Shown here piece by piece: positions 3,599-64,000 of a DNA stretch of 64,000 nt (position 1 is its first letter; each line of letters opens with the position of its first letter). This DNA is from an uncultured Clostridia bacterium (GTDB lineage: Bacteria; Bacillota; Clostridia; UBA1381): assembly GCA_947591315.1 (NCBI GenBank), contig CANQDD010000003.1, forward strand, positions 78,563 to 142,562, written 5' to 3'. Both the position numbers and the translations under genes were made by a program. Under the pieces are notes generated by a model that saw nothing but the letters and a program-made list of their open reading frames with translations, was not told the DNA's origin and ran no database searches.

Positions 3599-3925
3599 AT
3601 GAATAGAATAGCGGAGTTAAGAAAAGAAAAACATTTAAACCAAATCGGGCTTGCCATGAAATTAAATATATCACAGTATATGGTAAGTTCATACGAAACA
3701 GGCAGACATCAGCCGACAATGGATATGCTGATAGAATTGGCTGATTTTTTTAATGTTTCTATTGATTATTTAGTGGGAAAAAGCGAAGTGCGCTATCCTG
3801 CCGATATTTTCCTTAATAATAATATATCAAAGAAAGAACTGGCATTATTAAATATATTCCGAACATTAACGAAAGAAAAACAAGAGCAGGCAATAGGTGT
3901 TTTGTTCACACTGCAGAATCTATAA
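3599..3925 (+). CDS. XRE-family helix-turn-helix regulator
   Basis: 108 residues. The N-terminal half is a Cro/C1-type HTH (RIAELRKEKHLNQIGLAMKL...SQYMVSSYETGRHQPTMDML, about residues 3-58) followed by the common IDYLVGKSE linker; the C-terminal half is a short helical tail. GGGAGGATAGTC precedes the ATG. It is probably a DNA-binding repressor of itself and of the divergent DUF1413/stalk gene pair, because repeated CCAATATAATTAT boxes fill the shared promoter region. Confidence 0.85.
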   Translation: MNRIAELRKEKHLNQIGLAMKLNISQYMVSSYETGRHQPTMDMLIELADFFNVSIDYLVGKSEVRYPADIFLNNNISKKELALLNIFRTLTKEKQEQAIGVLFTLQNL

Positions 3926-4694: not shown

Positions 4695-4997
4695 ATGGCT
4701 GAAAAAATCATGAACAGCTATGAAACAATCTTTATCATTGACGCAACTCTCGACGAGGAGAACGTAACGGCGCTTAAGGATAAGTTTACATCGCTTATCG
4801 AGGCGAACGGCGAGCTTGAATCCGTTGACGAGTGGGGTAAGAGACGACTCGCTTACGAAATCAATGACAGAACAGAGGGTTTCTACTATCTTGTAAACTT
4901 CAAGGCTGAACCGGAATTTCCGAAGGAGCTTGAAAGACAGTACAGGATCACAGACGGAATACTCAGGACGATCATTGTAAGAAAAGACGAGGAATAA
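4695..4997 (+). CDS. rpsF: Ribosomal protein bS6
   Basis: 100 residues. It starts MAEKIMNSYETIFIIDATLDEE and carries the usual WGKRRLAYEINDRTEGFYY and ELERQYRITDGILRTIIVRKDE signatures. bS6 binds the 30S platform next to bS18. The start at 4695 is set by AGGAGGTGCAGAAA; a longer frame upstream covers the leader and is not coding. First gene of the rpsF-ssb-rpsR operon. Confidence 0.97.
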   Translation: MAEKIMNSYETIFIIDATLDEENVTALKDKFTSLIEANGELESVDEWGKRRLAYEINDRTEGFYYLVNFKAEPEFPKELERQYRITDGILRTIIVRKDEE

Positions 4998-5024
4998 GTC
5001 AAAGGCGAGAAAGCGGTGTAAGGA

Positions 5025-5501
5025 ATGAACAAAGTAATTTTAATGGGACGTCTTACCCGTGACGTCGAAATGCGTCAGACGCCGAGCGGAGTTTCGCTCG
5101 CGAGATTTTCAATCGCCGTAAACAGACGTTTCGCAGGCAAAGACGGTCAGCAGCAGGCTGATTTTATAAACTGCGTGGCGTGGAGGCAGACGGGCGAGTT
5201 TATCGCGAGATATTTCCGCAAGGGCAGCATGATTGCCGTAGTCGGCAGCCTGCAGTCGAGAAGCTGGGACGGTCAGGACGGTAAGAGACAGTATTCCACC
5301 GAGGTACAGGTGGACGAGGCGTACTTTACCGGTTCAAAAGCCGAAACGGGTACAACGGGCGGCAGCTACAGCGGCAACCAGGGCGGCTACAATCAAAGTG
5401 CGCCGCAGAATAACGCGCCGAGCGCGCCGGATTTCGGCGACGACTTTAACATGGACGGATTTTCCGACCTTGACGGCAGCGAGGACGATCTGCCGTTCTA
5501 A
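5025..5501 (+). CDS. ssb: Single-stranded DNA-binding protein
   Basis: 158 residues. An OB fold (about 1-105: MNKVILMGRLTRDVEMRQTPSG, then DFINCVAWRQTGEF, then VGSLQSRSWDGQDGKR) is followed by a glycine/asparagine-rich linker and the acidic tip DLDGSEDDLPF, which docks partner proteins of replication and repair. It lies between rpsF and rpsR, the standard Firmicute arrangement, and should be co-transcribed with them. Confidence 0.97.
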   Translation: MNKVILMGRLTRDVEMRQTPSGVSLARFSIAVNRRFAGKDGQQQADFINCVAWRQTGEFIARYFRKGSMIAVVGSLQSRSWDGQDGKRQYSTEVQVDEAYFTGSKAETGTTGGSYSGNQGGYNQSAPQNNAPSAPDFGDDFNMDGFSDLDGSEDDLPF

Positions 5502-54233: not shown

Positions 54234-54836
54234 TCAGCCCTCCCACGGACGTATGCGGTACGTCACTCCGATATGCTCACAGATAAGCGCGCATTTCTTT
54301 TCCTCTTCCTCCGTCAGCGTGGTGGAAACGGTGGACATAATGACGTTCGGGACGTATTTCTTTACGTTTTCCGCAAAAGCAATCATCGCGTCGAACGATT
54401 TGATGCCGAATTTACTGCGCGTAAGCTCCAGGTACCGCTCGGGACTGGGTGTGTTGAGGCTTATCGAAACCGTGTCGACCAAGCCCTCAAATTCCGGCGC
54501 GGTGTTCCTGCCGTGAATTAAATCGGCAAGACCGTTTGTGTTGACGCGTATGGGTTTGCTGTACTTTTCCTTTATGAAGCGGCAGACCTTAAGCATATCG
54601 TCAAGCCTTTCGGTCGGCTCACCGAAGCCGCAGAATACTATTTCATCGTATTTCGCTATATCAAATTTTTCAAATTCAGCCTTAACCTCGTCAACGGTCG
54701 GCTCTCTTTCGAGCCATAGACTGCCCGAACCGTTCATTTCCTCGCGCGTCTGCCTTAAACAGAACGTGCACGCGCACGGACATTTATTTGTCATATTGAC
54801 GTATAAATTGTTGTGTACCTCGTAAAGTATTACCAT
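54234..54836 (-). CDS. Radical SAM protein, TatD-associated type
   Basis: 200 residues, short for a radical SAM enzyme. The cluster motif CACTFC sits inside NKCPCACTFCLRQ (CxxxCxxC), followed by IVFCGFGEPTERLDDML and IRVNTNGLADLIHGRNTAPEFEGLVDTVSISLN. The pattern resembles the small TatD-linked radical SAM family, whose reaction is unknown to me. tatD is not in the window. First gene of a two-gene operon with its own promoter. Confidence 0.8.
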   Translation of the reverse strand: MVILYEVHNNLYVNMTNKCPCACTFCLRQTREEMNGSGSLWLEREPTVDEVKAEFEKFDIAKYDEIVFCGFGEPTERLDDMLKVCRFIKEKYSKPIRVNTNGLADLIHGRNTAPEFEGLVDTVSISLNTPSPERYLELTRSKFGIKSFDAMIAFAENVKKYVPNVIMSTVSTTLTEEEEKKCALICEHIGVTYRIRPWEG

Positions 54837-54868
54837 GATTTACGCCTTCTTTCCTTAAAGCTGGGAAA

Positions 54869-54897
54869 AGTATAACATATTATACCGCCGATTGCAA
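54869..54897 (-). promoter_or_regulatory. Promoter of the radical SAM-EamA operon
   Basis: On the minus strand TTGCAA (54897-54892), 17-bp spacer, TATACT (54874-54869). Confidence 0.65.
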
Positions 54898-54942
54898 GCA
54901 AAAAATCCTGCTTCTCCGCCGCCCGACGTAAAATAAGCCGAT

Positions 54943-54975
54943 AAAAACAAACAAGCGGAAAAATCCCGCTTGTTT
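54943..54975 (-). terminator. Intrinsic terminator of the crRNA-like RNA
   Basis: On the minus strand AAACAAGCGG (54975-54966) pairs with CCGCTTGTTT (54958-54949) around a 7-nt loop, then GTTTTTAT. Confidence 0.85.
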
Positions 54976-55011
54976 CATAATTCATGTGAGCCGTTCCGCA
55001 GAACGGCAGGG

Positions 55012-55045
55012 AATAAAACTCACGCGCCCCCTGCGGGGCGCGACC
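55012..55045 (-). repeat. Degenerate type I-C repeat (pseudo-repeat 2)
   Basis: Aligns with the array repeat over 34 nt with 8 differences: five A-to-G or T-to-C changes in the stem-loop region, which keep all stem pairs, and three in the last five bases. The changes give GCGCCCC pairing with GGGGCGC. Confidence 0.8.
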
Positions 55046-55065
55046 TTGGTATAATAAATTTCAAA

Positions 55066-55077
55066 ATTTCAACTCAC
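55066..55077 (-). repeat. Half repeat with intact crRNA handle (pseudo-repeat 1)
   Basis: GTGAGTTGAAAT, identical to the last 12 nt of every array repeat. The upstream stem part of the repeat is not conserved here. Confidence 0.75.
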
Positions 55078-55148
55078 GTGCTTATCAAACTGCAAAAATA
55101 CAACATGGTAACAGTGTTTCAGCACGAACACTTCAAAAAACTAACTGA

Positions 55149-55177
55149 ATTATAGCATAATTATAGAATTATGTCAA
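55149..55177 (-). promoter_or_regulatory. Consensus promoter of the crRNA-like RNA
   Basis: On the minus strand perfect TTGACA (55177-55172), 17-bp spacer, perfect TATAAT (55154-55149). It points away from cas3, through the half repeat. Confidence 0.85.
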
Positions 55178-55251
55178 TATACTTAACATTTCTCTTGTGG
55201 TAGAATTCATTTATAGTTTTATAAAAATTTTATTTGTTTTTCCCAAAAGTA

Positions 55252-55293
55252 TTGACATATAATAAAATGCATTGTATAATAAATATCAAAGAG
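55252..55293 (+). promoter_or_regulatory. Consensus promoter of the cas operon with built-in guide target
   Basis: TTGACA (55252-55257), 17-bp spacer, TATAAT (55275-55280). The target of the pseudo-spacer covers 55271-55290, that is the -10 box and the predicted start; its PAM-side triplet is CTC on the minus strand (55293-55291). Cascade bound here would block initiation. Confidence 0.8.
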
Positions 55294-55324
55294 TTTATAT
55301 TCATTAAAAGAAGAGGTGATAATT

Positions 55325-57487
55325 ATGGTAAATTATATTGGACATACGTCCGAAGATGGCAGAATACAGAGTGTAAAAGAGCATCTTGAACAGACGGCTC
55401 GGTTAAGCTGCGACAATGCTGTACAGGAATTTAAGGAGCTTGCGTATTGCTGCGGACTGTATCACGATTTGGGCAAATATTCGCGGGAGTTTCAGAACTA
55501 CATACGAGGCGAGGGAGCAAAGACGGTACACGCGAGGTTCGGCGCTGTGCGCATTATCGAAAAATGCCCAAAATCGTATGCGGCGATGCTCGGATATTGC
55601 ATCGGCGGACATCATTCGGGTTTGCCGGACGGCGGCGTCAGGAATGACAATCCCGAACAGCCGACCCTTTGGGGAATGACCAAAAGAGAAAGATACGATT
55701 GTTCCGCGTTTGATAAGGAAATCGGGGATTGGATTCCGGACGATTCTCTATATGATATTTTGAACCGGCTTCCTACAGATAAAGAGCGTGTTGAAATATA
55801 TTCGTTTTTGACGAGGTACATTTATTCCTGCCTCACCGACGCGGATTTTATTGACACTGAACGGTTTTGTCAACCTGACGCCGAGCGCGGCATTGAGGGG
55901 GATTTTGAAGCAGCGTATGAAAAGGTCCGCGCGAAGCTTGACGCCTTTGAATGCGTGACGGAGTTGCAGAAGGCGCGAAGCGGTATTCAAAGCCAGGTTT
56001 ACGAGAGCATGAGAAACGGCGACGCGAATATTTACGTAGTGGACATGCCGACCGGCAGCGGCAAGACGCTGTGCAGTATAAAAGCCGCTCTTGAAACGGC
56101 GATCAGGCATAATAAGAAGAGAATTATTTACATTATACCATTCACCAGTGTTGTCGAACAAACAGCCAAAACCTTCCGTGACATATTCGGTGATGTGCTG
56201 CCGGTTTTGGAGCACCACTCAAATTACGATTTTGACGACCCGAACAAAAATGACGACGAGAGCGGCAAAACAGGCGAAAAATTAAAAAAGACGTGTGAAA
56301 ACTACGACGCGCCTTTAATCATTACAACAAACGTCCAGTTTTTCGAGTCTCTGTATCACAACAAAAGCAGCCGCCTCCGGAAACTTCACAATTTTGCGGA
56401 CAGCGTGCTTGTATTCGATGAAATTCATACGCTTCCAATCAAATACATTCAGCCGTGCCTGCGCGCGGTCGGCTATATAACCCGATACTTAAACTCTACG
56501 GCAATTCTGATGTCGGCGACAATGCCCGACTACACGCGTTTCGCCGAAAAATACATTCCTCAAAGCACGATTGAATACGCGGTCAGGGACAACAGCCTTT
56601 TCAGCCGCTTCGACAAGTGCAAGTATGAATATATCGGTCAAAGCGATATACAGACCGTAGCGGAAAAGGCGCTTGCCGAGGAAAACGCGCTTGTCATTGT
56701 CAACAAAAGAAGCACGGCGCGCGAAATGTATAATATATGTAAGGACGCACCCGATTTCAACGTGTACCACCTATCCACATACATGACTCCCGTTGACCGC
56801 ACGAAAATCATAGACAAAATACGGGACGATCTTAAAAACGGATTAAAAACGGTTGTAATTTCCACCTCGCTTATAGAGGCGGGCGTTGACCTTGATTTTA
56901 AGTCGGTGTTCCGCGAAATCGCGGGACTTGACAACGTTATTCAGTCGGGCGGACGCTGCAACCGCGAGGGTAAAATGAAAGTAGGCAACGTGGTCGTGTT
57001 CAGGCTCGGGCATTTGAGGGGAGATATGGATCTCAAAGCAGATATCACGGAAAAGCTTTTCGAGGAGTATGAAAACATTGCCTCCGCGGAGGCTGTGCAG
57101 TCGTACTATGAAAGAATATTTGCTGCCGCCGATAAAATGATCGAAAGCAATTCGATAACGACGCTTATGGGCAAAATGCGGTTTGACGGAATACCGTTCC
57201 GAACTTATGCGCAATCGTTTAATTTTATAGAATCGGAGACGATAGGCATAGTTATTCCGTGCAAGGAGAACGCGGAGCTTATAGAAAAATTGAAATACGG
57301 AGCGCTCTCCGCAAAACGAAAGCTGCAGCCCTACTGCGCGTCGGTTCATGTATATGAGCTTGACGATATGATAAAAAACGGAATAGCGGAGAAACTGCCG
57401 GGCGATGTATGTATTTTGTCAAATCCCGATTATTACAGCGGAGAAACGGGACTTGATATAAATAAAAATTTTAATTATGTTTTGTAA
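55325..57487 (+). CDS. cas3: CRISPR-associated helicase-nuclease Cas3, type I-C
   Basis: 720 residues. N-terminal HD nuclease (His20, then YHDLGKYSREFQ with H47-D48, and GHHSGLPDGG), followed by SF2 helicase motifs: PTGSGKT (242-248), DEIH (365-368), LMSATMP, STSLIEAGVDLDF and QSGGRCNREG. It is recruited by Cascade and shreds target DNA. A GTG at 55316 is in frame, but the ATG at 55325 has AGAAGAGG at good spacing. First gene of a seven-gene cas operon. Confidence 0.96.
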   Translation: MVNYIGHTSEDGRIQSVKEHLEQTARLSCDNAVQEFKELAYCCGLYHDLGKYSREFQNYIRGEGAKTVHARFGAVRIIEKCPKSYAAMLGYCIGGHHSGLPDGGVRNDNPEQPTLWGMTKRERYDCSAFDKEIGDWIPDDSLYDILNRLPTDKERVEIYSFLTRYIYSCLTDADFIDTERFCQPDAERGIEGDFEAAYEKVRAKLDAFECVTELQKARSGIQSQVYESMRNGDANIYVVDMPTGSGKTLCSIKAALETAIRHNKKRIIYIIPFTSVVEQTAKTFRDIFGDVLPVLEHHSNYDFDDPNKNDDESGKTGEKLKKTCENYDAPLIITTNVQFFESLYHNKSSRLRKLHNFADSVLVFDEIHTLPIKYIQPCLRAVGYITRYLNSTAILMSATMPDYTRFAEKYIPQSTIEYAVRDNSLFSRFDKCKYEYIGQSDIQTVAEKALAEENALVIVNKRSTAREMYNICKDAPDFNVYHLSTYMTPVDRTKIIDKIRDDLKNGLKTVVISTSLIEAGVDLDFKSVFREIAGLDNVIQSGGRCNREGKMKVGNVVVFRLGHLRGDMDLKADITEKLFEEYENIASAEAVQSYYERIFAAADKMIESNSITTLMGKMRFDGIPFRTYAQSFNFIESETIGIVIPCKENAELIEKLKYGALSAKRKLQPYCASVHVYELDDMIKNGIAEKLPGDVCILSNPDYYSGETGLDINKNFNYVL

Positions 57488-57504
57488 AGGAGGTTGACGC
57501 AAAA

Positions 57505-58227
57505 ATGGGCTATGGATTTAAAATCATGGTGAGCGGACAATACGCGTGCTTTACCCGTCCCGAGATGAAAACGGAACGAGTAAGCTACGACGTTCCGACG
57601 CCGGGCGCCATGGAAGGACTTATCAAGAGCATTTACTGGAAGCCCGCGCTGCGGATTGTGGTGGACAAGATCGTGGTGTTCAGTCCGATCAAATTCATCA
57701 ATATACGCCGTAACGAAGTTGAGGAAAAAGTAAGCTTCTCAAAGGTAAAGCGGCAGATGAAGGACGGTCAGGAGCGGGCGGCGCTGTACACATCGGATAT
57801 CAGAAGTCAGCGCGGCAGTATGATTCTCAAAGACGTTCTGTACGGTGTCGAGTTCCATTTCGAGCTTACCGGCATAAGGAGCGAGCATGACGATGAAAGC
57901 GAGGAAAAGCACTACAATATCATGCTCCGCAGATTGAAAAACGGGCAGTTTTTCAGACAGCCGGTTCTCGGCTGCCGCGAGTTCGCGGTCGACAAAATCG
58001 AGCTTGTGGACGAGTTCCCTATGGACAGGGTGTCCGAAGAATTAAAGGGCGACGTGGATCTCGGTTATATGCTGTACCACATGAAATTCCGCGACGGCGG
58101 CATTCCGAAGAACAATGACTGGGACGCACGCAAATTCTCGGATGAGGCGGACGCGATGTTTTACCGTCCGCACATGGTTGACGGCGTGATAGACGTTGCG
58201 AAATACAAGGAGGTGGTGAAATGCTGA
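57505..58227 (+). CDS. cas5c: Cas5 (type I-C, crRNA-processing endonuclease)
   Basis: 240 residues. In subtype I-C there is no Cas6, and Cas5 cuts the repeat and keeps the 5' handle. Visible features: FKIMVSGQYACFTRPEMKTERVSYDVPTPGAMEGLI at the N-terminus and GQFFRQPVLGCREFAVDKIEL in the middle, both typical of Cas5d/c. AAGGAGG precedes the ATG; its 3' end overlaps cas8c by 7 bp. Confidence 0.95.
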   Translation: MGYGFKIMVSGQYACFTRPEMKTERVSYDVPTPGAMEGLIKSIYWKPALRIVVDKIVVFSPIKFINIRRNEVEEKVSFSKVKRQMKDGQERAALYTSDIRSQRGSMILKDVLYGVEFHFELTGIRSEHDDESEEKHYNIMLRRLKNGQFFRQPVLGCREFAVDKIELVDEFPMDRVSEELKGDVDLGYMLYHMKFRDGGIPKNNDWDARKFSDEADAMFYRPHMVDGVIDVAKYKEVVKC

Positions 58228-60017
58228 TAAACGCGCTTAATGATTATTACGATTTTTTATCTGCGGCGGGAAAGGCCGCGCCGCAGGGAACATCGCCGCA
58301 GAAAATCACTCATATGATAGCGCTCAGAGCAGACGGCTCGGTAAGCGATATTATTGATGTGCGCGAACCGGGAGAACCCGACAAAAACAGTAAGTCAAAG
58401 CTTGAACGCATTAATGTCATATTGCCGAAGCGCGAGCAGAGAACATCGGACATTCACCCCAATATAATAGAGCATGATCCGCAGTATATTTTCGGATTGA
58501 GCTATGACAAAGGGGCGGAAATCTTCAGTGACAAAAATAAAAAAGACAAAGAGAAGCATGAGCGCTTTGTTGAATTGAATTTGGAGTATACCGAAGGTAT
58601 GACCTCCGATATTGTGACGGCGTACAGAAATTTTCTGAAAAGCTGGGTGCCGGAGAATGAGACGGAAAACGCGGAACTTCTGAAGATAGCGAAGGACTAC
58701 CCGAGCGCGTATTTTATCTTTTGTCTCGACGGACATCCGGAAATCACTCTGCATGACGAGAACGGAGAGATAATGCAAAAGGTCGCGCAAAACGCGGACG
58801 CGGGCAACGAAAAAATCGACGGCGTGTGCGCGGTAACGGGTAAACCGGCGGAGATCTCAGATAAACATGATGTAATAAAAGGAATTCGCGGTGGGGCGGT
58901 TTCTGATAAACGTCTTGTAAGTTTTAAGCATTCGGCTTTTGAATCGTACGGAAAAAAGAAGTCGTATAACAGCTCAATATCCAAGGAGGTAATGAAGCGT
59001 TATACCGAAGCCTTTAACATTCTCTTAAGCGACCCGAAGCATCATATTTATCTTGACGACATGACCGTGGTATTCTGGGCGATGTCAAAGGACGACGGCA
59101 AAGAAACGGACACGCTTATGAGCATGTTCGGCTTCGGAGATGAAAAAGCCGATGCGTCCGAGGTGGACGAATGGCTTGAGAACGCGTTAAAGGAATTGAG
59201 CGAAGGCAGAAAAATTGATTTGTCAACCGCGGGCATTGATGAAAACGTCACGTTTTACGTGGCGGGTCTCGCGCCGAACAGCTCGCGAATTGCGCAGAAA
59301 TTCATATACCGCGACAAATACGGGAAAATTTTTGAGAACGCCGCGAGACATCAGCTTGATATGAAGATTGACGGCGGCGAAAGACAGATATCGATTGGAC
59401 GTATGCTGTACGAAATGAGATCGCCCAAAAGCAGAAACGAAACGACGCCTCCGCCCGTTATCGCGGCAATTTTTACGGCGATACTTAACGGAACGCGCTA
59501 CCCCGACACTTTGCTTGAAACTATAGTAAGGCGGGTTAAGGTTGACAAGTCAATAAATTGTGAGAGAGCCGGAATTATAAAGGCTTGCATAAACAGAAAT
59601 TTAAGGTTAAACGAGAAGGAGGAAATTGAAGTGTCACTTGACAAAACAAACACAAACGAGGCATACCTGTGCGGAAGGCTGTTCGCGGTGCTTGAACGCA
59701 TACAGACGAACGCGCTTGGAAATTTGAACAGGACGATCAAGGACTCATATTTTGCGTCCGCGTGTTCAACGCCGTCGCTGGTATTCCCGAAGCTGATATC
59801 TTTGGCGCAAAATCACCTTAAAAAGGTTAAATCTCAGAAGGAAGCGCTGTATATAAAATACAACAAACTTATAGGTGAGATCATAGACATGCTCGGAACG
59901 GAATTTCCGTCAACACTGTCGCTTCAGGAACAGGGCAGATTTATGATAGGCTACTATCAGCAGGTGCAGGATTTTTACAAGAAAAACGGTAAACAGGAAA
60001 ATGCAAATAACGATTGA
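58221..60017 (+). CDS. cas8c: Cas8c, large subunit of type I-C Cascade
   Basis: 598 residues, near the family length. Csd1-type features: LNDYYDFLSAAGKAAPQGTSP at the start, CAVTGKPAEISDKHDVIKGI, FYVAGLAPNSSRIAQKFIYRD, and TPPPVIAAIFTAILNGTRYP. It recognises the PAM and, in I-C, an internal start can also give a Cas11-like small subunit. A candidate internal site is AAGGAGG at about 58982 before ATG 58992, but that ATG lies rather early; the true Cas11c start is not certain. Confidence 0.94.
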   Translation: MLINALNDYYDFLSAAGKAAPQGTSPQKITHMIALRADGSVSDIIDVREPGEPDKNSKSKLERINVILPKREQRTSDIHPNIIEHDPQYIFGLSYDKGAEIFSDKNKKDKEKHERFVELNLEYTEGMTSDIVTAYRNFLKSWVPENETENAELLKIAKDYPSAYFIFCLDGHPEITLHDENGEIMQKVAQNADAGNEKIDGVCAVTGKPAEISDKHDVIKGIRGGAVSDKRLVSFKHSAFESYGKKKSYNSSISKEVMKRYTEAFNILLSDPKHHIYLDDMTVVFWAMSKDDGKETDTLMSMFGFGDEKADASEVDEWLENALKELSEGRKIDLSTAGIDENVTFYVAGLAPNSSRIAQKFIYRDKYGKIFENAARHQLDMKIDGGERQISIGRMLYEMRSPKSRNETTPPPVIAAIFTAILNGTRYPDTLLETIVRRVKVDKSINCERAGIIKACINRNLRLNEKEEIEVSLDKTNTNEAYLCGRLFAVLERIQTNALGNLNRTIKDSYFASACSTPSLVFPKLISLAQNHLKKVKSQKEALYIKYNKLIGEIIDMLGTEFPSTLSLQEQGRFMIGYYQQVQDFYKKNGKQENANND

Positions 60018-60034
60018 TAAAGGAGAGATTAAAA

Positions 60035-60898
60035 ATGGAAACAATTAAAAACAGATACGAATTTATAGCGCTTTTTGACGTTGAAAACGGCAATCCAAAC
60101 GGTGATCCCGACGCGGGCAATATGCCGAGGGTAGATCCCGAAACCGCGCACGGCATAGTTACGGACGTGTGCATCAAGAGAAAGATACGCAACTATGTCG
60201 AGCTTTGCAAGGAAGGCGAGGCGGGATATAACATACTTATTAAAACCGACAAATCGCTTAACTCAAAGTTTACGGCGGCATACGAGGCGGAAGGTCTTGT
60301 GACCGGACAGGAGGGCAAAAATCCCGACGATGTAAAAAAGGCACGCAGCTATATATGCAGAAATTATTTCGACGTGCGCGCATTCGGCGCTGTAATGAAC
60401 ACGGGTAAAGATCCGTGCGGCATTGTGCGCGGTCCGGTTCAGGTTAATTTCGCGAGAAGCATCGATCCGGTATATCAGCAGGACATCACAATTACAAGAC
60501 AGGCGAGAACCACGGAAGAGAGAATGAAAACCGGCGAAACGGAAATGGGTAAAAAAAGCATCGTACCCTACGGACTGTATAAGGCGGAGGGCTACGTGTC
60601 GGCAATGCTCGCGCAGAAGGTCACGGGATTTTCAGAGGACGATCTTGAGCTTCTATGGACTGCGATTATCAATATGTTCGAGCATGACCACAGCGCCGCG
60701 CGCGGTAAAATGTGCATGAGAAAGCTCATCGTGTTTAAGCACGAAAGTCCTCTCGGTAACGCTCCCTCGCATATTTTGTTCGACAAAGTGTCGGTCAATA
60801 AAAAAGCGGGCGTGGAATTTGCGAGAGCGTATGACGATTACGATGTTACAATCGACAAAAACATGCCCGAAGGCGTAACGCTTATTGAAAAGCTATGA
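60035..60898 (+). CDS. cas7c: Cas7, backbone subunit of type I-C Cascade
   Basis: 287 residues of the Csd2 type: NRYEFIALFDVENGNPNGDPDAGNMPRVDPETAHG, then VRAFGAVMNTGKDPCGIVRGPVQVNFARSIDPV, and EHDHSAARGKMCMRKLIVFKHE. Several copies coat the crRNA spacer. A frame from 60014 exists, but the ATG at 60035 has AAAGGAGAG and matches the family start. Confidence 0.95.
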   Translation: METIKNRYEFIALFDVENGNPNGDPDAGNMPRVDPETAHGIVTDVCIKRKIRNYVELCKEGEAGYNILIKTDKSLNSKFTAAYEAEGLVTGQEGKNPDDVKKARSYICRNYFDVRAFGAVMNTGKDPCGIVRGPVQVNFARSIDPVYQQDITITRQARTTEERMKTGETEMGKKSIVPYGLYKAEGYVSAMLAQKVTGFSEDDLELLWTAIINMFEHDHSAARGKMCMRKLIVFKHESPLGNAPSHILFDKVSVNKKAGVEFARAYDDYDVTIDKNMPEGVTLIEKL

Positions 60899-61542
60899 CG
60901 GTAAATATTCGCACAATTCAGCATTATATGTATTGTCCGCGAAGGTTCGGCTTATTGGAATTAAATCAAGACTGGTCGGAAAACGCGTTCGTCGTAATGG
61001 CGAATATTATGCACGAGCGCGTCCACTCCGGCAAGCACGAGCTTCATTCAAAGAATAAAATCGAGCTTAGCTCCGTTTCGCTGTACCATGACGAGCTTGA
61101 CCTGTACGGCGTCGCGGACTGTATTGAATTTGTAAGAAGCAAAACGGGAACATATATCGAGCAGCTCGGTGACAAATTTGATGTAAACATAGTCGAATAC
61201 AAACCGCGTCAGCCGGATTCCGGAGCAGCGAACGAAACGGATATAATACAGGTTTTCGCTCAAAAGCTTTGCGCGGATTATATATGGAAATGCAAAAGCA
61301 CGGGCTATATTTATTACGGCGATACGCGCCGCAGGGTAAAGCTGCAGTTGAATGAAGAATATGATAAATACTATTCCTTGCTCCAAAAGCTGATTTCCGA
61401 AATGAATGAAATTCTCGAAAGCGGAAACATTCCGGTGCGAATTAAAGGGCAGAAATGCAGCGGATGTTCAATTAAGGACGTATGTGTGCCGCAGAATAAA
61501 AAATATACAGTCCGCAGTCTTGTTAAGGAGGAGAGTGTATGA
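60895..61542 (+). CDS. cas4: Cas4 nuclease, type I-C
   Basis: 215 residues. The N-terminal YCPRRFGLLEL supplies the first cluster cysteine. The catalytic stretch includes GVADCIEFV and VEYKPRQP (motifs II-III), and the C-terminal CSGCSIKDVCVP gives the other cysteines. Cas4 trims and orients new spacers so that they carry the right PAM. It overlaps cas7 and cas1 by 4 bp each. Confidence 0.95.
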   Translation: MTVNIRTIQHYMYCPRRFGLLELNQDWSENAFVVMANIMHERVHSGKHELHSKNKIELSSVSLYHDELDLYGVADCIEFVRSKTGTYIEQLGDKFDVNIVEYKPRQPDSGAANETDIIQVFAQKLCADYIWKCKSTGYIYYGDTRRRVKLQLNEEYDKYYSLLQKLISEMNEILESGNIPVRIKGQKCSGCSIKDVCVPQNKKYTVRSLVKEESV

Positions 61543-62561
61543 GGAAGCTTTTGAACTCACTGTATATAACCGATGAGAGCATATATCTGACGCTTGACGG
61601 AGAAAACATTGTGTGCAGAAAGGATAACAAAATTCAGTTACGCTTGCCTTTTTCAAATATCGAGGCTGTGTACTGCTTCGGCTATCTCGGCTGCTCGCCC
61701 GCTTTAATGGGAAAATGCGCGGAATACGGTATACCGATAACCTTCATATCGCCGCAGGGACGTTTTCTCGCAAGTGTTCACGGAGCGTCGCACGGCAATA
61801 TACTATTGCGTAAGGCGCAGTTCGAGAAATTTGCAGATCCTCCCGCGCTGCTGCGTCAGAATACGGTTGCCGCAAAAATGGCAAACACGCGCAGCGTTGT
61901 AAAGCGAACGCTGAAGGACTATCCGTCGGTCAATGACGACGGCAGTCTCTCGCATTGTATTGAGCTGCTGAACCAATACATAGAAAACGTGTATGCGACA
62001 GAGGACGTAAATGAAATTCTCGGCATAGAAGGCCGCGGAGCGAAGGCGTATTTCGACATTTTTGACAGCCTGATTTTGCATCAAAAAGACGATTTTCATT
62101 TTGCCATGCGCACAAAGCGTCCCCCGTTGGACAGAGTAAACGCGGTGCTGTCGTTTTTGTATACCGTCTGGACGAACGACTACGCGTCAGCTCTTGAAAG
62201 TGTGGGGTTGGACAGCTATATGGGTTTTTATCACGCTGTCCGTCCGGGACGCGCGTCGCTTGCGTGCGACCTCGTTGAAGAAAGCCGCTGCATAGTGGAA
62301 CGGTTTGTTCTTACCATGATAAATTTGAAGATATTAAACGCGAAGGATTTTGAAACGCAGGTAAGCGGAGCGGTATTTCTGAACACGGACGGCAAAAAGA
62401 AGCTCCTCGCAAAGTGGCAGGAGAAGAAGCGCACAGATATAACGCACCCGTATTTGAAGCAGAAAATACAGCTTGGGCTTTTGCCGTACGCGCAAAGTAT
62501 GCTGCTCGCGAAGTATATCCGCGGCGAAATCGAGGAATACCCGTGTTATATTGTGAAGTAA
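61539..62561 (+). CDS. cas1: Cas1 integrase, type I-C
   Basis: 340 residues. N-terminal beta domain with LYITDESIYLTLDGENIVC, then the helical catalytic domain with Glu in EVNEILGIEGRGAKAYFD-type stretch (EDVNEILGIEGRGAK), His in GFYHAVRPGRASLACDLVEESR, and the C-terminal SGAVFLNTDGKKKLLAKWQEKK. It inserts spacers at the leader end of the array with Cas2. Confidence 0.96.
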   Translation: MRKLLNSLYITDESIYLTLDGENIVCRKDNKIQLRLPFSNIEAVYCFGYLGCSPALMGKCAEYGIPITFISPQGRFLASVHGASHGNILLRKAQFEKFADPPALLRQNTVAAKMANTRSVVKRTLKDYPSVNDDGSLSHCIELLNQYIENVYATEDVNEILGIEGRGAKAYFDIFDSLILHQKDDFHFAMRTKRPPLDRVNAVLSFLYTVWTNDYASALESVGLDSYMGFYHAVRPGRASLACDLVEESRCIVERFVLTMINLKILNAKDFETQVSGAVFLNTDGKKKLLAKWQEKKRTDITHPYLKQKIQLGLLPYAQSMLLAKYIRGEIEEYPCYIVK

Positions 62562-62579
62562 GGAAAGGAAACCGAAATT

Positions 62580-62870
62580 ATGATGAGTGTGGTAAGCTAT
62601 GATGTTTCGACAACCGACGCGGAGGGCAGGCGAAGGCTCAGGAGGGTTGCGAAAGAATGTGTCAATTACGGTCAGCGCGTCCAAAATTCCGTTTTTGAGG
62701 TTGATGTTGACTACTCAACATTTTTGAAGCTGAAGGATAAATTGGAAAATATTATCAACCATGATAAGGACAGCCTCAGAATATATTACCTCGGCAACAA
62801 CTGGAAAAGGCGCGTCGAGCATATCGGCGCCAAAGCAACGTATGATCCGGAGGGTGCGCTGATTATATGA
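62580..62870 (+). CDS. cas2: Cas2, type I-C
   Basis: 96 residues. VVSYDVSTTDAEGRRRLRRVAKECVNYGQRVQNSVFEVDVD is the standard ferredoxin-like start with the YDV motif. It forms the core of the Cas1-Cas2 spacer integrase. AAGGAAAGGAA precedes two adjacent ATGs; the first has the better spacing. Confidence 0.96.
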   Translation: MMSVVSYDVSTTDAEGRRRLRRVAKECVNYGQRVQNSVFEVDVDYSTFLKLKDKLENIINHDKDSLRIYYLGNNWKRRVEHIGAKATYDPEGALII

Positions 62871-63013: not shown

Positions 63014-64000
63014 GGTCACGCCTCGCAAGAGGCGTGTGAGTTGAAATGTTATAAAGTTTGCCCGTAAGCGCGACCTTTGTACCGGTCACGCCTCGCAAGA
63101 GGCGTGTGAGTTGAAATGTCAGGTAAACCGGCGCTCGGCGTCGGTGCGGGAGGTCACGCCTCGCAAGAGGCGTGTGAGTTGAAATAACAATGTGGGCTCA
63201 GTGAAAGGAATGTATCATGGTCACGCCTCGCAAGAGGCGTGTGAGTTGAAATTTTCTTCAGCTCGTCGTACAGTATGGCAAATACGGGTCACGCCTCGCA
63301 AGAGGCGTGTGAGTTGAAATGATTACCATACCGCCCTTTGCCAACGCGTATTCGGTCACGCCTCGCAAGAGGCGTGTGAGTTGAAATCAACCCAGAAGAT
63401 TTTTAAGAGTTCATCTGTATTGGTCACGCCTCGCAAGAGGCGTGTGAGTTGAAATAACGCGATGAGCTCGCCGACGCGCGCGCCTGTGTGGTCACGCCTC
63501 GCAAGAGGCGTGTGAGTTGAAATCGCCGGTCTTTGTGCTTCGCGCCGGTGTCGGCTGGGTCACGCCTCGCAAGAGGCGTGTGAGTTGAAATGTGCAAGGG
63601 ACTTCTATACCCTCAAGCCCTCAAGGTCACGCCTCGCAAGAGGCGTGTGAGTTGAAATAAAAACGCCGTATTTATCCAAAAAATTTTTTACCTGGTCACG
63701 CCTCGCAAGAGGCGTGTGAGTTGAAATTCCCTGGCGCGGGGGCGCTGTGGGGTGTGCTGTGGGTCACGCCTCGCAAGAGGCGTGTGAGTTGAAATTTACG
63801 GTCATGGGAATCGGGAATCGGACACAGGGGGGTCACGCCTCGCAAGAGGCGTGTGAGTTGAAATTAAGTTAGCCGACCTCGCGACGGGCAATTACGTGGT
63901 CACGCCTCGCAAGAGGCGTGTGAGTTGAAATTTGCAGAGCGCGGACAAGATGAAAACGACGCGGGGTCACGCCTCGCAAGAGGCGTGTGAGTTGAAATTC
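63014..64000 (+). CRISPR. Type I-C CRISPR array, 15 repeats seen, continues past window
   Basis: Fifteen identical 34-nt repeats, starting GGTCACGCCTCGCAAGAGGC and ending GTGTGAGTTGAAAT, first at 63014, last at 63965-63998. Fourteen complete spacers of 33-36 nt; the array runs off the right edge. The stem is ACGCCTC/GAGGCGT. Repeats show no decay even at the last one seen. The cas genes lie upstream in the same direction, so the leader end is at 63014. No spacer obviously matches elsewhere in the window. Confidence 0.98.

Follow-up and report, generated by a model that had tools for sequence, protein, structure and literature searches.

Upstream of the type I-C cas operon in the 64,000-nucleotide stretch of DNA analysed here (the window) lies a crRNA-like gene whose product is most likely a CreR, and Cascade loaded with this RNA would repress its own operon. 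We consider it highly probable that Cas5c trims the predicted creR RNA and that Cascade, once loaded with it, is brought to the -10 box of the cas promoter, where it blocks cas transcription without cutting the DNA. This reading is built on directly observed features, namely the anatomy of the element, its match to the cas promoter, the uniqueness of that match in the assembly, the triplet adjoining the target and the co-evolution of guide and target in relatives.

Type I-C ranks as one of the most common CRISPR subtypes, and to our knowledge little is known about how its cas genes are controlled. CreRs, or cas-regulating RNAs, were reportedly the subject of a 2023 article in Cell Host Microbe. 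They are described in two reviews (PMC13131331, PMC12737573), the accessible part of the former stating their occurrence for types I-B, I-E and V-A. A CreR, like the window RNA, is a crRNA-like gene with partial complementarity to a cas promoter and predicted autorepression by the effector; the window RNA differs in going with a type I-C effector and Cas5c processing and in pairing through three 5-nt segments (15 nt). No I-C CreR appeared among the literature matches listed, and the original 2023 CreR tables may hold an I-C prediction. PMC12948488 names CreR while type I-C is absent from its text, and the accessible text of a 2023 review of cas regulation mentions type I-C in three places, which concern Cas5 processing and VicR/K (PMC10013973).

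The operon (55325-62870) has the type I-C gene order cas3-cas5c-cas8c-cas7-cas4-cas1-cas2, and the spacers of its array are 34-37 nt long. The crRNA-like gene lies on the minus strand and is divergent from the operon (Table 1).

Table 1. Positions of the creR element, its target and the surrounding type I-C locus, counted from the first letter of the window
Feature	Position	Strand	Remarks
creR promoter, -35 box TTGACA	55172..55177	-	TTGACA-17-TATAAT, 12/12 consensus
creR promoter, -10 box TATAAT	55149..55154	-	TG precedes -10
Predicted CreR primary transcript	54943..55142	-	ends inferred from promoter and terminator
Degenerate first repeat	55077..55126	-	stem CGTGCT/AGCACG abutting handle, 38-nt loop; centroid fold
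Intact 11-nt crRNA 5' handle TGAGTTGAAAT	55066..55076	-	last 11 nt, counted from repeat-stem base
Pseudo-spacer, 21 nt up to GTC of second repeat	55045..55065	-	guide positions 1-17 = 55065-55049
Degenerate second repeat	55012..55044	-	stem retained via two compensatory pairs; handle destroyed
Extra hairpin GCCGTTCTGCGGAACGGC	54990..55007	-	fold and sequence
Intrinsic terminator	54949..54975	-	12-pair stem and GTTTTTA
Target (protospacer) in cas promoter	55274..55290	-	16/17 letters, 15/15 read positions
PAM CTC	55291..55293	-	beside target
cas operon promoter, -35 box TTGACA	55252..55257	+	TTGACA-17-TATAAT, 12/12
cas operon promoter, -10 box TATAAT	55275..55280	+	within guide target
cas3	55325..57487	+	TIGR01587, TIGR01596
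cas5c	57505..58227	+	TIGR01876
cas8c	58221..60017	+	TIGR01863
cas7c	60014..60898	+	TIGR02589
cas4	60895..61542	+	TIGR00372
cas1c	61539..62561	+	TIGR03640
cas2	62580..62870	+	TIGR01573
CRISPR array, repeat GTCACGCCTCGCAAGAGGCGTGTGAGTTGAAAT	63015..64000	+	runs to window end

Both ends of the gene agree with the original prediction, which had placed a minus-strand TTGACA-17-TATAAT promoter before the element and an intrinsic terminator after it. The RNA fold of 55143-54940 reaches -65 kcal/mol (z -3.99 against 200 dinucleotide shuffles); the 5' stem by itself is not significant (shuffle p 0.17). The 12-mer GTGAGTTGAAAT (55077-55066, minus strand), which holds the handle, is intact as had been claimed, but the handle proper, counted from the stem base, is 11 nt rather than 12. 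In the assembly searched (2,342,639 bases, 85% complete) this 12-mer occurs 16 times, 15 of them in the array; the creR copy, whose handle sits 248 nt upstream of the cas3 start, is the sole one outside it, so that a repeat-derived handle is found in the cas locus apart from the main array, as in a CreR. The expected pseudo-spacer is present, though one nucleotide longer than the 20 first given. For the second repeat, five stem-loop changes that preserve pairing had been described; four of these form two compensatory stem pairs (4/21 and 9/16, with pairing read from sequence) and one (14) lies in the loop, while three more (29, 30 and 32) abolish the handle, bringing the changes relative to the array repeat to eight. 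The element thereby has the form of a mini-CRISPR, with hairpin and handle 5' of the pseudo-spacer and a degenerate repeat 3' of it. An ordinary CRISPR array is ruled out by the 21-nt spacer, against 34-37 nt in the array, and by a second repeat with eight changes and no handle. A search of 54800-55400 against Rfam returned sub-threshold matches only (sraA, E 0.59; Qrr, E 0.65). A radical SAM gene of the TIGR04100 family lies at 54234-54836 on the minus strand, downstream of the creR terminator; no link between it and CRISPR was seen.

Every sixth guide nucleotide is flipped out in Class 1 complexes (PMC11127173). Written in this register, the guide TTTGA-A-ATTTA-T-TATAC and the target TTTGA-T-ATTTA-T-TATAC agree in every one of the 15 letters expected to be read by Cascade (positions 1-5, 7-11 and 13-17), and the target covers the cas -10 box, as had been proposed. 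The pseudo-spacer thus shows the limited complementarity to its cognate cas promoter that marks a CreR, with CTC alongside as a putative PAM. The 17 of 20 identities between pseudo-spacer and cas promoter on which the original prediction drew are borne out by alignment; they are, however, the weaker form of the evidence, since 4 of 5000 dinucleotide shuffles of 55080-55330 reach this plain identity. A chance likeness between two A+T-rich, TATAAT-like stretches, beside a decayed mini-array, could draw on that figure, but none of 5000 shuffles of the same interval reached 15 of 15 read positions together with a YYY PAM (best 14, once). The resemblance between guide and cas promoter in the window is confirmed as real and is stronger than first stated.

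Across the 2.34-Mb assembly, YYY-TTTGANATTTANTATAC has a single exact site, the cas promoter, and with up to two mismatches it is found at eight places, the pseudo-spacer itself included. This uniqueness bears on a different reading, in which the RNA is a CreA-type antitoxin that would direct Cascade to a toxin-RNA promoter, such that loss of Cascade would poison the cell. Antitoxins of this kind share the anatomy of two degenerate repeats around a pseudo-spacer (PMC8501985). A CreTA pair would have a toxin-RNA promoter as its target, whereas in the assembly searched the window guide fits exactly only the cas promoter, and we reject CreTA for the window on this ground.

Comparison with close relatives supplies changes on both sides of the match. 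Some Cas3 match was present in 10 of 16 same-genus genomes, the window's own counted, and the same divergent element was found in four of the same genus (G012, G013, G015 and G009; Cas3 82-89% identical to the window's), which with the window make up a clade of five species. Read positions 2, 4, 5, 7, 8 and 17 vary among the five guides, and every change is mirrored in the targets (75/75 cells), a score reached only by the true guide-target pairing among 120 permutations. At position 6 all five guides have A, and the letters in the targets are T, T, T, A and T. When four loci picked as distinct guides of the next layout (L076, L077, L081 and L083) are added, 134 of 135 cells match, a level reached by none of 200000 random assignments. 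The original prediction had asked whether guide and promoter change together in related genomes, and they do.

A lack of conservation of handle and match among relatives had been named beforehand as refuting the prediction; when this was checked, the prediction held. Handle, guide and a PAM-flanked promoter match are all present in 11 of the 12 closest I-C systems under analysis, a set that includes the window and whose Cas3 proteins are 71-100% identical to the one encoded there; the match is 15/15 in ten of them and 14/15 in L076. Guide and cas promoter are conserved as a pair, as expected of a CreR. The twelfth system, L080, has deletions in both: its intergenic region aligns closely with that of L076 minus 13 nt, comprising the handle end and the guide start, and a 66-nt gap removes the cas promoter, while the cas reading frames are open. 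Guide and promoter have been lost together at this locus. Its interval 4860-5236 holds a decayed creR and no cas promoter, and transcription of the operon may now start at the creR promoter; the paired decay constitutes a natural experiment on how such control is lost. In the elements upstream of cas3 in L073 and L075, the handle of the second repeat is still intact; beyond it, L073 has a spacer of normal length and then a third repeat, which probably shows what the ancestral mini-array looked like. Two more distant I-C loci of the same family (G049 and G001) showed no detectable element.

A wider survey was based on named genomes scanned with a Cas7c alignment, from which the best 80 loci were kept. 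With the window, 62 of 81 loci were analysed, the 19 omitted being those without the cas3 N-terminus; one of the 62, L148, holds just 13 nt upstream of cas3. A locus was counted when it had a handle of at least 8/11 followed by a guide that matched at least 14 of 15 read positions at a site beside a YYY triplet, located either upstream of cas3 or between cas3 and cas5. Such a guide was present in 24 of the 62 related loci, 21 of the 24 at 15/15; reversed targets gave 0/62 and the targets of other loci 0/310. The loci are phylogenetically non-independent, with 21 distinct guides among the 24 and L128 and L130 being near copies. In a class and phylum set, of which 54 of 56 fetched loci were analysed under stricter settings (PAM YTY, handle at least 9/11), 6 of the 54 carry such a guide, against 0/540 in the control. 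In this set L153, which has no match, is the same DNA as L136 of the 62; L169, L170 and L172, the same DNA as L086, L085 and L076, were kept out of the count; and cas5 start offsets lie about 90 nt too far upstream owing to a truncated query, leaving the matches unaffected. Altogether, guides of the same build that match DNA ahead of the local CRISPR genes occur in 29 bacterial loci besides the window, and under these strict criteria 38 of the 62 near and 48 of the 54 distant loci have none. A relaxed criterion adds five loci (L095, L104, L105, L107 and L127), two of them via array spacers, with a control rate of 14/620; under this looser rule, the perfect pairing of L104 and L105 is confined to segments one and two. 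The L107 match, from an array spacer of ordinary appearance 9.36 kb after the cas3 start, covers 15/15 read positions upstream of cas3 beside CTT, is of low complexity and may be due to chance.

Mismatches in the 24 loci fall at position 6 (18 loci), 12 (14), 15 (1) and 17 (2), and at no other position up to 17; at each position from 18 to 34 they number 16-22, the level of unrelated sequence. Read positions had served to select the 24, and the test was therefore redone on 27 elements without favouring any position, taking the best 17-mer nearby and requiring no PAM. These 27 were drawn from 33 ectopic handles, leaving aside the second handles of L075 and L073, two in L145 and one each in L100 and L109. 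Mismatches again piled up at positions 6 (21), 12 (18) and 18 (23), with 0-1 at each of 1-5 and 7-11 and 0-5 at 13-17, so that the proposal that Cascade leaves positions 6 and 18 unread generalises beyond the window. Although no PAM was asked for, 26 of the 27 best sites are flanked by CTC, CTT or TTC, and the exception, L111, is probably not a true element. A chance origin of the match is contradicted by these comparative data (the mirrored changes in relatives, the cross-locus controls and the period-six mismatch profile), and we reject it as having a next to negligible probability.

The triplets beside the 24 targets are CTC (11), CTT (10) and TTC (3). CTC does adjoin the window target, as the original prediction held, but its standing as a working I-C PAM is not matched by the I-C PAMs named in the accessible parts of PMC6546366 and PMC10865793, which are NTTC, TTC and TTT. 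The window system's own PAM was sought through its spacers, and no protospacer was found for the 3 of 14 complete spacers scanned in viral contigs or in two array searches of phage records.

The pairing profile also separates the preferred reading from that of an antisense RNA, which would pair with the 5' leader of the cas mRNA and block translation without Cascade. The guide is indeed complementary to the coding strand, with which the RNA would pair in 23 of the 24 loci, and in six of these (L076, L077, L079, L081, L082 and L083) the targets lie downstream of the predicted -10 box, near the start codon. Free mismatches at 6, 12 and 18 nevertheless mark pairing by Cascade and not RNA-RNA pairing; the targets of L113, L123, L132 and L139 lie upstream of the predicted -35 box; and little of the window target would be transcribed, because it straddles the -10 box. 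We regard an antisense RNA as highly improbable.

Beyond the pairing rule, the elements attributed here to CreR were compared in their 5' stems and in their placement. Where a stem precedes the handle, its end is flush with the handle. Compensatory variation is seen in the stems of 18 elements, picked from the 24 because they have such a stem and trimmed by hand (L091, L096, L109, L118, L128 and L130 omitted): pair 3 is T-A in 6, C-G in 10 and G-C in 2, and pair 5 is C-G in 8, T-A in 6, G-C in 1 and T-G in 1. Taken singly, 8 of 24 stems fall below p 0.05. The I-C elements have at least three layouts, one of them inside the operon, which sets them apart from described CreRs. Layout A is divergent with the target on the -10 box (window, L073, L074, L075 and L133). 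In layout B the element runs in the cas3 direction; its members comprise the two groups just distinguished, with targets downstream of the predicted -10 box or above the predicted -35 box, and three loci of uncertain promoter (L128, L130 and L144). Layout C occupies the minus strand between cas3 and cas5c with the target ahead of cas5c (L091, L096, L118, L121 and L124), and its guide runs almost straight into a terminator-like hairpin without a second repeat. A distant locus, L159 (G346), carries two creR-like elements, one matching 15/15 ahead of cas5 and the other 14/15 ahead of cas3, both beside TTC; such separate guides for two sites are a further difference from described CreRs.

In 23 of the 24 loci, no more than 215 nt separate the target from the start of cas3 or cas5c, which argues against the antitoxin reading. 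A distant relative, L109, speaks for it: about 400-520 nt upstream of cas3, a minus-strand handle and guide match 17/17 letters on the plus strand, 416 nt upstream of cas3, at a position that precedes another promoter-like site rather than the cas3 promoter. L109 is possibly a CreTA-like pair; for the window RNA, a CreA-type function is very unlikely. The CreAs of haloarchaeal type I-B resemble the I-C elements in having degenerate repeats, a short pseudo-spacer and a PAM, in pairing at 1-5 and 7-11 with positions 6 and 12 free, and in coming either with two repeats or with a terminator where the second repeat would be (PMC8501985). As described there, pairing at 1-5 and 7-11 suffices for I-B CreA, and the third segment is therefore a point of difference: CreA needs two segments and targets a toxin promoter, whereas the I-C elements also pair at 13-17 and target cas promoters.

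How a CreR would act in the window can be outlined from these features. The creR gene would be transcribed from its own predicted promoter. Type I-C Cas5c processes crRNA and grips its handle (PMC7684278), which makes cleavage by Cas5c at the hairpin-handle junction the natural inference, and the processed RNA would be expected to begin UGAGUUGAAAU-UUUGAAAUUUAUUAUAC. Cascade would then assemble on the creR RNA, sit on the cas promoter and lower cas transcription. Cutting would presumably be absent because pairing stops at position 17, its 15 paired letters probably being too short for Cas3 action. A response of CreR to crRNA supply and to anti-CRISPRs has been described (PMC12737573); by analogy, ordinary crRNAs or phage anti-CRISPRs that draw Cascade off would relieve repression, and more Cas proteins would therefore be made when Cascade is scarce or disabled. 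An engineered Neisseria lactamica I-C Cascade does repress transcription when aimed at a site that covers a -10 box and has TTC as its PAM (PMC10865793); that system is man-made, has a 35-nt spacer and had Cas3 removed, whereas the window locus has Cas3.

If this reading is true, RNA-guided self-repression reaches type I-C, in which Cas5c makes the guide, and natural loci themselves reveal the pairing rule: three blocks totalling 15 letters would hold Cascade on a promoter, presumably without licensing Cas3. Such cells would also be anti-CRISPR alarm systems, since disabling Cascade would raise cas expression, and the elements would serve as a ready template for silencing genes with I-C systems that retain Cas3. 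On balance, we lean towards a broader view as well: a self-aimed RNA thermostat may be widespread in the type I-C systems of Bacillota, its code fixed as a YTY PAM plus the 5-nt segments 1-5, 7-11 and 13-17 and its site repeatedly changed (to the -10 box, the transcript start, above the -35 box, or between cas3 and cas5c), with some cells setting nuclease and effector separately by two guides and with 15-letter pairing as the I-C set-point that excludes RNA polymerase without licensing Cas3.

The RNA might instead be a decoy of the Racr kind or an orphan mini-array, tying up Cas proteins without aiming them. Racrs, including RacrIC1, are lone repeat units whose I-F and I-C representatives have been shown to inhibit, and like the window RNA a Racr is a lone crRNA-repeat-like RNA that would load I-C Cas proteins (PMC10651486). 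In the accessible part of that source, however, Racrs are phage-borne inhibitors described from viral genomes and not with a cas-promoter guide, whereas the window element belongs to a host cas locus and has a guide that follows the changes of the cas promoter. A Racr, as a solitary viral repeat without a targeting guide, is rejected for the window, and a decoy role in general is most improbable.

A phage-borne repeat was also encountered. A pattern search for phage-borne copies of the element gave five stretches, none with a repeat-like hairpin. The array searches matched two phage records, MT838203 and L218 (MT836150.1), the latter a Bacteriophage sp. record from human faeces. For L218, tblastn with the window's Cas proteins found nothing, and the 17 nt that follow its repeat matched no PAM-flanked cas-promoter site among 220 sequences. 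At 3744-3776 it carries one lone type I-C repeat of the present group with the handle TGAGAAGAAAT, preceded by TATAAT and followed, after those 17 nt, by a strong terminator-like hairpin; judged by this arrangement, the lone repeat looks like an RNA anti-CRISPR.
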